A DNA stretch of 33,464 nucleotides, taken from Nautiliaceae bacterium. Lineage in GTDB: Bacteria; Campylobacterota; Campylobacteria; Campylobacterales; Nautiliaceae. The notes under the pieces were generated by a model. It made no database searches. It was not told the origin of the DNA and worked only from the letters and a program-made list of their open reading frames with translations. Positions 2,556 to 16,088 of this stretch are shown here, one piece after another (the first letter of the stretch is position 1; each line of letters begins with the position of its first letter). The stretch covers positions 30,799 to 64,262 of the forward strand of contig JALVVX010000006.1 of NCBI GenBank assembly GCA_027038555.1, written 5' to 3'. A program made the position numbers and the translations under genes.

Positions 2556-3000
2556 TAATATGGTTTTGGAGATATATAAAGGCGGAGTGCCTGTAATGGA
2601 TGTGTTAAACAGGTGGTATGATGAGTTTAAGCTTGAAGGATATGGAGCAATGATACCGTTTATCGGGATTGTAAGACCTGATAACGGCATTGATGGGCTT
2701 AGTTTTGATTTGTATCTGCCGCTCCTTACCGAGTGGTTTAAAAAATGGCAAAATCTCCCTGATGCTAAAATCACAATGGCGCACAGCTTTGGCGATGTAA
2801 TGGTAGGTGAGACAAGTTTTTTATGCGCCGTTTATACAAAACATAGGCGCGAAGGATTTAAATATTTAGAAGAATTTGTAGAGGATTTCAAAGCAAATGC
2901 CCCTATTTGGAAGTATGATTTAAAAAACGGAAAAAGAATTTTTGCAAGTGACAGGGCAAAGCCGCTGCCTCAGGCTGGAATTTTAATGGAGAATAAATGA
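2536..3000 (+). CDS. moaE: Molybdopterin synthase catalytic subunit
   Basis: MoaE inserts sulfur from two MoaD thiocarboxylates into the pterin precursor to give molybdopterin. The sequence shows LEIYKGGVPVMDVLNRWY at the N-terminus and AMIPFIGIVRPDN. AHSFGDVMVGE follows, then the catalytic Lys region NAPIWKYDL, and KPLPQAGI near the end. Two starts are possible. The ATG at 2536 has GGAG eight bases upstream, supplied by the heptamer repeat, and gives 154 residues with a repeat-derived N-terminus (MESGKLNN). The ATG at 2560 gives a more standard 146-residue protein but a poorer binding site. I list the former. The stop overlaps the next gene by ATGA. Confidence 0.93.
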   Translation: MESGKLNNMVLEIYKGGVPVMDVLNRWYDEFKLEGYGAMIPFIGIVRPDNGIDGLSFDLYLPLLTEWFKKWQNLPDAKITMAHSFGDVMVGETSFLCAVYTKHRREGFKYLEEFVEDFKANAPIWKYDLKNGKRIFASDRAKPLPQAGILMENK

Positions 3001-3398
3001 GTTATAAAAAGTGGGATATTGTAAGTGTTGATTTTGGAATTAGTACAAATTTAATAGATGAAAAAGAAATTTTTACAAAAAGTAAAATTATTGAAAAGAA
3101 AGGTATAAATTTTAATAAAGAATTTAGCTTATTGCATATTGCAATTGTAATTAGTCCTTCTTTTTTAAATAAAAAAGGAAAATTATTAGTTATTCCTATT
3201 ACCTCTTTTAATCCTGAAAAACATAGTCCTGATTTTTTAAATCATTTTGTTTTGTATAAAAATTTAAAAAATGATAGTGTTTTGGTCTTAAATGAAATTA
3301 GAAGTATTGATGAGGGAAGAATTGTAAAGAAACATAATTTTCATTTAAAGGATATTCACAAAAAAGTGATACAAGAAAAATTGCCTAAAATATTGTAG
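2997..3398 (+). CDS. MazF/PemK-like toxin-family protein, no partner antitoxin
   Basis: The 133-residue protein resembles the PemK/MazF fold (type II toxin endoribonucleases). It has a KKWDIVSVDFG opening strand, then HIAIVISPSFLN, then LVIPITS followed by a His (SFNPEKHSP). It ends with VLVLNEIRSIDEGRIVKK, which matches the family's late conserved block (IRxIDxxRL). The usual RPxLVIS arginine is not obvious, because the position before AIVIS reads LLH, so ribonuclease activity is uncertain. The start codon overlaps the moaE stop (ATGA), so translation is coupled. The gene is visibly more AT-rich than moaE and moeA. No antitoxin-sized gene adjoins it on either side. It looks like a later insertion between two molybdopterin genes. 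Family assignment is moderately sure; function is not. Confidence 0.7.
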   Translation: MSYKKWDIVSVDFGISTNLIDEKEIFTKSKIIEKKGINFNKEFSLLHIAIVISPSFLNKKGKLLVIPITSFNPEKHSPDFLNHFVLYKNLKNDSVLVLNEIRSIDEGRIVKKHNFHLKDIHKKVIQEKLPKIL

Positions 3399-3433
3399 AC
3401 CCACAAAGGGGTAAAAACGATAATTAAATTTAT

Positions 3434-12674: not shown

Positions 12675-14060
12675 ATGGTAGTGACTCGTTTTGCTCCAAG
12701 TCCAACGGGGTATCTTCATATCGGAGGGCTAAGAACTGCGCTTTTTAACTGGCTTTGGGCAAGAAAAAATGATGGGAAATTTAGATTAAGAATTGAAGAT
12801 ACAGATAAAGAAAGAAACAAAAAAGAAGCGGTTGATGCAATAATTAAAGCATTTGACTGGACTGGGCTAAATTATGATGGAGAGATAGTTTTTCAAAGCC
12901 AAAGAGAAGATATTTATAAAAAATATCTTAATGAGCTTTTAGAAAAAGGTTTGGCTTATAAATGTTATCTTACAAAAGAAGAGCTTGAAGCAATTAGAGA
13001 AGCCAAAATGAAAGGTGAAGAGCCTCCTATTGATATTAGAAAATATAGAGATTTTAAAGGAGAGCTTGATAAACCTTATGTTATAAGATTTAAAACTCCT
13101 CTAAGTGGTAAAATCTGTTTTGAAGACGGAGTTAAGGGAATGCAGTGCGTGGAGGCAAATGAGATTGAAGATTTCGTAATTGCAAGGAGTGATGGGAGCC
13201 CTACATATAATTTTGTTGCCGCAGTAGATGACCATGAAATGGGAATGACAGATATTATTAGAGGGGATGATCATTTAAGAAATACTTTTAAACAGCTTTT
13301 AATTTATGAAGCGTTTGGCTGGAATGTGCCGAAATTTTATCATGTGCCTATGATTCATAATGAAAAAGGCTCTAAAATGAGCAAAAGAGACGGGGCTGTT
13401 GATGTAATGGAATACAAAAGAGAAGGTTATCTTCCAGAAGCACTTCTTAACTTTTTAGTGCGTCTTGGATGGTCTCATGGGGACCAGGAAATTTTTAGTA
13501 TAGAAGAGATGATAAATCTGTTTGACCCAAAAGATATAAACAAAGCACCAAGCAGATTTAATAAAGAAAAACTTGACTGGCTGAATTCTCACTATATTAA
13601 AAATTCACCTAATGAGAGACTTGAAAAACTTCTAAGAGATGATTTTGGAATTGATATCATTAATCACGATAAAAAAGAAATTTTAATTGATGAACTTAAA
13701 GAAAGAGTAAAAACACTTAAAGAGATGGCAGAGGAAATTGATAAAATTCTAACGCCGCCAAAAGAATATAATGAAAAAGCGGTTAAAAAATTTATAAAAG
13801 ATGAGGTAATCAGTAATTTAAGGGAATTTTTGGTATTTTTAAATGATAAAGACCCGAAACTTCCGCCTGAGTGGGCAGACGCAATGCATGAATTTTTAGA
13901 AATGAAGCAAATTAAGCCAAAATTTTTAATGCCGCCACTGAGAATTGCAATGGTAGGAGATACAAAAGGAATTGATTTAGCTGCACTTCTTAGCGTACTT
14001 GGCAAAGAAGAAGTCAAAAAAAGAATAGCAGGTTTAATTGCTAAATTTGAGGTTTTTTAA
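12675..14060 (+). CDS. gltX: Glutamyl-tRNA synthetase
   Basis: This class I synthetase charges tRNA with glutamate. The 461-residue protein has the HIGH-type motif in SPTGYLHIGGLRTALFNW (HIGG at 15-18) and the KMSKS-type motif KMSKR at 234-238. LRIEDTDKER and NEIEDFVIARSDGSPTYNF, both typical of GluRS, lie between them. The C-terminal anticodon-binding part is helical. Many Campylobacterota have two GltX paralogues, one charging tRNA-Gln, and I cannot tell which this is. The ATG at 12675 follows AAAAGG, with an extended -10 just upstream. The stop overlaps the convergent XRE-cupin gene by 4 bases. Confidence 0.95.
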   Translation: MVVTRFAPSPTGYLHIGGLRTALFNWLWARKNDGKFRLRIEDTDKERNKKEAVDAIIKAFDWTGLNYDGEIVFQSQREDIYKKYLNELLEKGLAYKCYLTKEELEAIREAKMKGEEPPIDIRKYRDFKGELDKPYVIRFKTPLSGKICFEDGVKGMQCVEANEIEDFVIARSDGSPTYNFVAAVDDHEMGMTDIIRGDDHLRNTFKQLLIYEAFGWNVPKFYHVPMIHNEKGSKMSKRDGAVDVMEYKREGYLPEALLNFLVRLGWSHGDQEIFSIEEMINLFDPKDINKAPSRFNKEKLDWLNSHYIKNSPNERLEKLLRDDFGIDIINHDKKEILIDELKERVKTLKEMAEEIDKILTPPKEYNEKAVKKFIKDEVISNLREFLVFLNDKDPKLPPEWADAMHEFLEMKQIKPKFLMPPLRIAMVGDTKGIDLAALLSVLGKEEVKKRIAGLIAKFEVF

Positions 14061-15073
14061 CCCTTTTTGGCTTTTTCATAATAAAGTCCTGAATTAAAGC
14101 CTGTTAAGTGGTATGGCTTTAAGTTTTGTCTATGGGTTAAAGTTGAATTTTTAAGATTGTTTAACAGATTTTTAAATTCTTCAATTTGAGATTCAAATTT
14201 TTCATTTTCAATAACTTTTATACTTTTAATCACTTCAAGAGCTTCTTCAAAATCCCCGTTTTCAATAGCATATTTTGCATAAAGAATTTTTTTATCAAAA
14301 ATTTCATCTTCAACATTATCTATTATAAGCTGTAAAAAGTGTTTTATCATATTTATTTTTTTCTCTTTGCTGGTGGAAAAAGGGGCAATTATATCAATAA
14401 TACCGGGTTTTCTTTTATAAGGTTTTGGCTTAAAGCAATAAAGCCATCCGTCATATTCTATTGTTTTTATTGTTTTGTCTTTTGGAGCGTATTTCAAATT
14501 ATCCGTTCTTTTTATAGGGATGCCGGAATTTATTTCAATTTCTATATTGTCATCAAAAATATCGTCTTCAAAAAACTTAAACCTGTTTTCAAAATAGTGA
14601 ATTGTAACAATTATAGTTGCGTTTTGGCTCAGTGTTTTATAAATATGAGCTTTATCGGCTTTGAATGAATAAATTTCACTCGGCTTTAAAATTTTTGGCT
14701 CTTCAAATGGACCTGTTAAAACTTCACCGTCTATTACGAATACATCCTCTTTTGCGTTTTTTGGATGTGGAGCGGCTTTTTGGGTATGATAGTTTTTTAG
14801 TTTCATTTTATAAACTTCAATGTTTTTTTCTTTTTCAATTAAACTAACTTCAATGTTTTCTTCAATGATTTTATCTTCGATAAGTTCTCCAAAAGGAACA
14901 TTTAAAGCATTAGCTATCGCCCATAGTGTATTGATAGTCGGATTTGTATTACCTTCTTCTATGCTTAAAAGATTTGATTTTGAAATTCCGGCTTTTTTGG
15001 CTAAGCCGCTTAGCGAATAATTTTTTTCTTCTCTTAATTTTTTTATTCTTTTTGCAAGGTTTTGAAGTTTCAT
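14057..15073 (-). CDS. XRE-cupin transcriptional regulator with an extended C-terminal region
   Basis: The 338-residue protein has three parts. Residues 6-61 are a clear XRE helix-turn-helix (LAKKAGISKSNLLSIEEG, NPTINTLWAIANAL). Residues about 90-165 resemble a cupin sensor barrel (AKEDVFVIDGEVLTG, KPSEIYSFKADKAHIYK). The remaining 170 residues are not part of the usual XRE-cupin layout. They include IEYDGWLYCFKPKPY, then IIDIIAPFSTS, then a helical, TPR-like stretch (LYAKYAIENGDFEEALEVIK) and a basic tail. I do not recognise this part. The gene is divergent from an EamA transporter. Two inverted repeats lie in the shared 178-base gap, so it probably controls itself and the transporter. The ATG at 15073 follows AAGGA. 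Confidence 0.85.
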   Translation of the reverse strand: MKLQNLAKRIKKLREEKNYSLSGLAKKAGISKSNLLSIEEGNTNPTINTLWAIANALNVPFGELIEDKIIEENIEVSLIEKEKNIEVYKMKLKNYHTQKAAPHPKNAKEDVFVIDGEVLTGPFEEPKILKPSEIYSFKADKAHIYKTLSQNATIIVTIHYFENRFKFFEDDIFDDNIEIEINSGIPIKRTDNLKYAPKDKTIKTIEYDGWLYCFKPKPYKRKPGIIDIIAPFSTSKEKKINMIKHFLQLIIDNVEDEIFDKKILYAKYAIENGDFEEALEVIKSIKVIENEKFESQIEEFKNLLNNLKNSTLTHRQNLKPYHLTGFNSGLYYEKAKKG

Positions 15074-15096
15074 AATTTTCCTTGTTTGTTATTTAG

Positions 15097-15122
15097 AACG
15101 AATTTTAATATAATTGTTCGTT
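15097..15122. promoter_or_regulatory. Operator-like inverted repeat over divergent -10 elements
   Basis: AACGAA (15097-15102) and TTCGTT (15117-15122) form a perfect 6-bp inverted repeat with a 14-base spacer. The spacer contains TATAAT on the plus strand (15109-15114) and TATATT on the minus strand. A protein bound here would cover the -10 elements of both the regulator and the EamA transporter. The XRE-cupin protein is the obvious candidate ligand, by inference from position. Confidence 0.5.
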
Positions 15123-15138
15123 AAATTCAAGAAATTAT

Positions 15139-15237
15139 AAAAATACTGACTAAATACATTCAACAAAAGTGCAAATTTTTTAACGCCTTTATTGCACTAA
15201 AATTTGCAATTGTTTCATTTTATTTGTCAGTATTTTT
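15139..15237 (+). promoter_or_regulatory. 99-bp concentric imperfect palindrome in the eamA leader
   Basis: A perfect 12-bp inverted repeat AAAAATACTGAC/GTCAGTATTTTT (15139-15150, 15226-15237) encloses a perfect 10-bp one TGCAAATTTT/AAAATTTGCA (15170-15179, 15199-15208) with nearly the same centre. AAATA/TATTT and AACAA/TTGTT pairings lie between them. A competing 7-bp pair AGTGCAA/TTGCACT (15168-15174, 15192-15198) uses the same left bases. The outer arm ends two bases before the AAGGAG of the transporter gene. If transcription starts near 15121, the RNA leader would contain the whole hairpin. Confidence 0.6.
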
Positions 15238-15251
15238 TAAGGAGTAATTAA

Positions 15252-16088
15252 GTGAAAAATAAAAAAAGAGGTTTAATTGAAATGATAGGGGCTACCCTTA
15301 TTTGGGGCAGTACGCCAATTGTCGGGATACTTTCAAACTTACCAAGTCCTGTGTTTGTATTTTTTAGAGTGCTTTTTGCTTTTCCTTTTATTTTTTATTT
15401 TGCCATTAAAAGAGCAGGTATTAAAGAGTTTTTTAGATTAAAACCTTTTTGGCCTTTATTTATCAGCGGAATTTTTTTGGCTGTTAATTGGATATTTTTC
15501 TTTTGGGCTTTGAATCTTACTACTATTTCAACAGTTGTGGTGTTGTATTATACAGGACCGATAATTTCTATAATATTAGCTGTTATTTTTTTAAAAGAGA
15601 AAATGAATAAATATATTGTATTTGCGATAATTTTGGCACTTACAGGAGTTGTTATAAGTAATTTTGACAATGGATTTGAATTTAATTTAGGAGCAATTAT
15701 TGCACTGATGGCCGGAATATCATATGGATTTTTGGGATTTTTTTCAAAAATTGCCACTATGCATCATAGAGCCGTAAGTGTTACGGCTTGGCAGATTTTA
15801 ATTTCTATTATTTTAACAGTCCCGTTTTTATTTTTAAATGATTTTAAATTTAGTTTTGCAACATTGATTATCGTGTTAATAGCAGGTATTATCCACACGG
15901 CTTTGGCTCTTTTTCTTTGGTATGATTCGCTTAATTTCATAAGCGTAGGCATTGCTTCGATTTTGCAATACCTTGATATTTTCTTTGCAATGCTTTTTGG
16001 GCTTTTTTTAAATCAAATTCCAAGCATTAATCAGTTAATAGGAGGAATTTTGATTGCGATAGCAGGGGCTGTGGGGACTAAAAAATAG
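15252..16088 (+). CDS. EamA-family (DMT) transporter
   Basis: The 278-residue protein has two EamA repeats, about ten membrane segments in all. The first repeat begins IEMIGATLIWGSTPIVG and ends near LTGVVISNF. The second begins GAIIALMAGISYGFLGFF and ends GGILIAIAGAVG. The late Pro-containing element of repeat 1 (TVVVLYYTGPIISIIL) and ASILQYLDIFFAMLFG in repeat 2 are typical. Such proteins usually export metabolites or amino acids, and the substrate is unknown. It starts at GTG 15252 with AAGGAG eight bases upstream. It is divergent from an XRE-cupin regulator, with a long palindrome in the leader. The stop overlaps the convergent pbp1A gene by 11 bases. Confidence 0.9.
   Translation: MKNKKRGLIEMIGATLIWGSTPIVGILSNLPSPVFVFFRVLFAFPFIFYFAIKRAGIKEFFRLKPFWPLFISGIFLAVNWIFFFWALNLTTISTVVVLYYTGPIISIILAVIFLKEKMNKYIVFAIILALTGVVISNFDNGFEFNLGAIIALMAGISYGFLGFFSKIATMHHRAVSVTAWQILISIILTVPFLFLNDFKFSFATLIIVLIAGIIHTALALFLWYDSLNFISVGIASILQYLDIFFAMLFGLFLNQIPSINQLIGGILIAIAGAVGTKK

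Follow-up and report, generated by a model that had tools for sequence, protein, structure and literature searches.

The intergenic space between two divergent genes of a Nautiliaceae bacterium, one for an XRE-type regulator on the minus strand and one for an EamA-type transporter on the plus strand, holds a striking palindrome, and the question raised by this locus is whether that palindrome regulates its neighbors or arrived there as something else. The initial annotation of the window, by which we mean the whole 33,464-nucleotide stretch of DNA that was analyzed, offered three readings, namely an RNA leader switch, a multi-half-site operator for the XRE-type protein, or a small mobile palindrome. 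Its description of the architecture holds up: a perfect 12-bp outer stem (AAAAATACTGAC at 15139-15150 with GTCAGTATTTTT at 15226-15237), 5-bp inner stems, and a 10-bp core stem (TGCAAATTTT with AAAATTTGCA) are all centered on one point, and the flanking genes are indeed divergent. The palindrome folds with an energy of -25.1 kcal/mol, compared to a shuffle mean of -14.0 (standard deviation, 2.6; z of -4.23), and 0 of 200 shuffles reach this value. The right arm had been described as ending in a T-run at an AAGGAG; this motif does lie one base beyond the arm, but the T-run is a paired part of the stem and leaves no free terminator tail. Because the mobile element described below spans only positions ∼15142 to 15234, the outer stem is partly flanking sequence (Table 1).

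Table 1. Features of the XRE-eamA intergenic region and its neighbors, in positions of the window
Feature	Position	Strand	Basis
Internally deleted copy of dispersed hairpin element (MITE)	15142..15234	+	Covariance model R1 match; 6 genomic copies
Left terminal inverted repeat, decayed	15142..15155	+	Consensus GGYACTGACTAAAT, here AATACTGACTAAAT; ends placed by the target-site duplications that border other copies
Right terminal inverted repeat, decayed	15221..15234	-	Consensus ATTTAGTCAGTRCC; here one A deleted, final GTCAGTATT
Conserved core stem, left arm TGCAAATTTT	15170..15179	+	Family alignment A1 (helix 3), with pairing in 96% of cells
Core stem, right arm region AAATTTGCAA	15200..15209	+	Window fold and family alignment A1
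Probable deletion junction TTTTTTAACGCC	15176..15187	+	Alignments with full-length copies
EamA ribosome-binding site AAGGAG, immediately outside element	15239..15244	+	Sequence
EamA-type transporter gene, neighbor outside element	15252..16088	+	GTG start; Pfam EamA, 2.3e-37
XRE-type regulator gene, neighbor outside element	14057..15073	-	Pfam HTH_3, 2.2e-15
Inverted repeat GAACGAATTTTAATATAATTGTTC, outside element	15096..15119	.	1 exact occurrence in genome; kept in G004, G005, and G006
Terminal pair of family written as search pattern, GGYACTGACTAAA...TTTAGTCAGTRCC			

The palindrome is one member of a dispersed family. BLAST of the 116-bp palindrome region against its own genome recovered several additional loci with strong but partial matches, and a covariance model (R1) built from 61 copies identified 6 copies in that genome (G000), scattered over unrelated loci, which answers the call of the initial annotation for a search for further copies; the other positive Nautiliaceae genomes hold 1 to 16. 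The window copy aligned to this model end to end (15143-15234 to model positions 1-152; 81.3 bits, E value of 3.9e-14), with central model positions missing. Searching 60 relatives with a 155-nt consensus gave matches in 23, comprising 20 of the 21 Nautiliaceae and 3 genomes from two other Campylobacterales families; scored by either BLAST or the covariance model, positives were again found in 20 of 21 Nautiliaceae genomes and also in families f13 and f18. Among 397 genomes drawn evenly from the phylum, the matches were confined to families f1 and f18, and the named records that match the element are mostly labeled Nautiliaceae MAGs. Weak model matches in G056, G049, and G058 belong to a related but different class. 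No match was recovered in the phages, plasmids, and viral contigs searched, on which ground carriage by phages or plasmids was rejected, and membership in a known RNA family was likewise rejected after the window and the long variants of the element returned no match in Rfam. Our search of the literature on Nautilia and Nitratiruptor repeats found nothing relevant, and the family appears to be undescribed within the literature searched.

Copies of the family are intergenic, noncoding, and ∼150 nt long, well within the generic MITE size of <600 bp. Where a copy has two flanking genes, these are arranged in the same direction, in opposite directions, convergently, or divergently in a ratio of 22:17:16:16 (gene arrangements called with a simple ORF caller), a split that fits random intergenic insertion with no orientation bias. 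Nautiliaceae intergenic regions also contain degenerate, low-complexity tracts rich in purines or pyrimidines (GAGTTTTGAGTTGTGAGTG..., CCACTCATCCACCC..., and GTTAAAAGTGAAAAATGAAAAGTG), some of which enclose the element (flanks in L053, L056, L016, L017, and L059).

The evidence that this family has moved comes from its ends and from the sequences around them. The ends, GGYACTGACTAAAT...ATTTAGTCAGTRCC, are terminal inverted repeats with the pattern GGYACTGAC...GTCAGTRCC, as found in MITEs, and 16 of 60 independent copies are bordered by 8-bp A/T-rich target-site duplications at ≤1 mismatch; 11 of these duplications are exact, among them CTTTTCTT, GGATTAAT, CAAACTTA, and TTCATTTT. Random re-pairing of left and right flanks in 5,000 permutations gave on average 0.88 and never more than 6 matching pairs at ≤1 mismatch, and never more than 4 exact ones. 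Although the offset and length of the duplication were picked by a scan, this choice cannot explain the excess, since the 11 exact 8-mers stand against at most 4 in any permutation; two of them (L082 and L083, both in G020) have near-identical flanks and may represent one event. At one filled site (G000:C2:7421-7566) the element separates AATCCT from TTTTAGG, and these two flanks directly adjoin each other in G003, G004, and G005. A second candidate empty site, identified by comparing G013 with G009, is less clean, as the unfilled genome holds 28 other bases. The dispersed hairpin family is a MITE, and it is the last of the three initial readings, the small mobile palindrome, that the dispersed copies, target-site duplications, and empty orthologous site support.

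The window palindrome itself is very probably an old copy of this mobile noncoding hairpin of the Nautiliaceae that has suffered an internal deletion. The intact unit is a noncoding sequence of ∼150 nt that folds as one end-to-end hairpin and duplicates 8 bp of A/T-rich target upon insertion. At its apex, intact copies have a stem bordered by an invariant A5 on one side and a T5-8 tract on the other, a shape that would suit a putative intrinsic terminator working in both directions. In the history that we propose, the unit was presumably moved in trans by a DDE transposase of the IS1595 family, as proposed from the terminal GG and the length and composition of the duplication. The insertion, directly ahead of the eamA ribosome-binding site, would predate the divergence of G000 from G005 and probably also that of G004. 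Full copies of the element read ...AAATTTTTTAACGC-(apical hairpin of ∼50 nt)-TTTTTTTAACGCC...TAAAATTTGC, so placed that TTTTTTAACGC stands on either side of the apical hairpin; the window sequence at the corresponding junction, AAATTTTTTAACGCCTTTATTGCACTAAAATTTGC, is the product expected from a deletion between two TTTTTTAACGC repeats, and the apical hairpin was apparently lost in this way. Judging from the alignment, this deletion in the G000/G005 line would have left the palindrome of 93 nt, which, if transcribed, would probably sit passively as a hairpin within the leader of eamA. G005 has the same deletion, G004 carries a different internal deletion at the same site, and short versions of the element are also present in G006, G019, and G020.

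Four points weigh against the MITE reading. No autonomous element with the family ends was found, and within the 637 kb examined no family end pair around a gene was convincing; the sequence of the outer stem varies between subfamilies, which would be unusual if one transposase reads all of the ends; the window copy has neither a recognizable duplication (ATTATAAA and TTTTAAGG at its two sides) nor a clean empty site; and the strong covariation of the family could mean selection on a functional RNA.

This last point leads to the alternative that survives best, albeit an unlikely one in our estimation, in which selection acts on the hairpin as a functional RNA or as a bidirectional transcription terminator and its mobility is secondary. 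In the 61-copy alignment, 94.6% of the cells form standard pairs, changes on both sides are seen in 19 of 30 pairs, and the covariation score is 0.310, compared to 0.139 in shuffled alignments and ≤0.078 in partner-slid controls. The A5/T5 helix (helix 5) is A-U or G-U in 98.4% of the cells and lacks two-sided changes, whereas its two neighbors, helices 4 and 6, show strong covariation with compensatory changes; a constant helix between covarying ones is the pattern expected of a sequence-constrained terminator tract. The recurrence of similar cores within elements bearing other ends, described below, points in the same direction. Orthologous copies in fdh leaders of G000, G001, and G004 diverge in sequence yet keep their stems. 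However, hairpin-templated repair of palindromes can also yield paired changes, and because such mutation could give the same pattern we only infer selection on structure. The copies furthermore have no bias of position or orientation relative to genes, and several of them, the window copy included, persist after loss of the core.

Long variants of ∼240 nt, whose apical loop holds additional hairpins, occur in two genera (G016:C77 and G009:C1; L142, ∼2570-2820, and L140, ∼2910-3145). The long-loop core of the main family is closely resembled by that of another hairpin element, with CAGGG...CCCTG ends, to which the model matches of about 50 bits seen in G016 and G020 belong; three of its copies (L209, L210, and L213; G016) have exact 10-bp duplications (TGGAAAAGAT, GGTAGTTTTT, and TTACATTCAC). 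A genome from another Campylobacterales family (G058) contains at least 6 similar hairpin elements of 157 nt (L203-L208) with ACTGACC...GGTCAGT ends and flanking direct repeats, such as GTTTCCAAC and TTACTGA. Common to all is a core like CTAAAAA-stem-AACG..CGCCCTNNCGGG-stem-TTTTTTTAACG, which has the shape of a stem resembling a two-way terminator, with small hairpins as its cap, and its carriers differ, having GGYACTGAC ends and 8-bp duplications, CAGGG ends and 10-bp duplications (G016), or ACTGACC ends (G058). One tentative explanation, which we hold to be improbable but worth stating, is that this apical module (CTAAAAA-stem-RAACG..CGCCCTNNCGGG..-stem-TTTTTTTAACG), shared across several Campylobacterota families, is structured cargo, for example a transcription insulator, captured by successive transposon families because it would make insertions harmless or block read-through into the element. 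One mosaic element was also observed (G020:C19; L126, ∼3250-3400), in which main-family ACTGACTAAA ends enclose a CAGGG-type fragment.

Other routes of mobilization for the MITE family fare worse. A REP-like repeat moved by a Y1 (RAYT-like) transposase, of which most Nautiliaceae have one gene, is very unlikely: 18 of the 21 Nautiliaceae genomes have a Y1_Tnp gene, typically of ∼250 aa, but four element-bearing genomes (G017, which is 99% complete, G032, G037, and G054) have no Y1 match, many relatives with Y1 lack the element, and the copies have 8-bp duplications, which Y1/HUH transposition is not known to leave. RAYT mobilization was rejected on the ground that the presence of the element does not track the RAYT gene, which is mostly single copy across these 18 genomes, as if domesticated. 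The genome of the window has one such RAYT-like Y1 gene of ∼250 aa (G000:C16; L156:1925-2671). An IS630/Tc1-type element, the type to which CREE and RUP belong and first suggested by the TA at both ends, was rejected in view of the 8-bp duplications and the absence of DDE_3 (PF13358), which has no match in G000 and is present in only 1 of 21 Nautiliaceae.

That the leader of eamA contains a cis-acting RNA switch alternating between two stems is extremely unlikely. The strong fold and the position directly upstream of the ribosome-binding site would suit such a switch, as would a promoter-like -10 TATAAT at ∼15109-15114 that would place the hairpin in the transcript (3 matches compared to 2.4 expected by chance). 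The two states were to arise from AGTGCAA and TTGCACT, both of which are present, but when this alternative helix is forced the energy is -19.9 instead of -25.1 kcal/mol at 37°C, a cost of 5.2 kcal/mol, and the orthologous copies of G005 and G004 lack TTGCACT; the minimum-energy and homolog check that had been suggested did not confirm bistability. At the eamA site the element has one orientation in G000, G005, and G004, separate copies in G003 and G012 lie in the opposite orientation, and the eamA orthologs of seven genomes (G006, G007, G008, G009, G011, G014, and G017) are free of it, with family copies elsewhere found in every gene arrangement. A riboswitch or cis-regulatory RNA class was rejected for these reasons, since compensatory change is present but a position before one gene class is not conserved, and Rfam gave no match. 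Repeated use of the eamA intergenic space is nonetheless notable but may simply reflect how few such spaces exist in these genomes. Scarcely credible, too, is a multi-half-site operator for the divergent XRE-type regulator, which would fit palindromic DNA in a divergent promoter region but not a sequence repeated at unrelated loci, and a different inverted repeat (GAACGAATT-N5-ATAATTGTTC), exact only once in the genome, stays beside the XRE gene at filled and empty sites alike. That repeat overlaps a TATAAT and is likely, as a prediction from sequence, the regulator's own operator/promoter.

With the MITE reading preferred, a supposed riboswitch or operator is dropped and replaced by a mobile-element family of vent Campylobacterota defined by its ends, its structure, the length of its duplication, and a covariance model. 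The window feature is ordinary in kind, a decayed MITE copy beside eamA. Its hosts are hydrothermal-vent bacteria of the family Nautiliaceae, and the shared core merits follow-up, as one structured core recurring inside different ends poses the testable puzzle of why miniature elements retain a hairpin.

Several known systems invite comparison. REP/RAYT systems are alike in their dispersed extragenic palindromes and in the RAYT-like gene in the same genomes, but the element described here is longer, has a low copy number and target duplications, and is present independently of the RAYT gene. The ERIC sequence is an imperfect palindrome. It has been described as a 127-bp intergenic mobile repeat (PMC2759123). 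Compared by description rather than by sequence, our element differs from ERIC and the enterobacterial repeat units in its host and in the 8-bp duplications shown here. Correia elements (CREE) have a TA target duplication, and internally deleted versions of them exist. In Neisseria they are short intergenic hairpin repeats, often beside genes, with structure expected in transcripts (PMC10969869). The present element is likewise a short intergenic hairpin repeat, often gene adjacent, but its duplication is 8 bp rather than TA, and we saw no sequence relation. In the IS1595 family, duplications are usually 8 bp (PMC8101967), and ISApl4 has A/T-rich duplications and ends starting with GG (PMC12561309). 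Our element contains no transposase gene and has ends of GGYACTGACTAAAT where ISApl4 has GGGGCTGTACTAGA, but the IS1595 family (IS1016 group, e.g., ISApl4) and its MITEs combine terminal GG, short inverted repeats, and 8-bp A/T-rich duplications, all as observed here.
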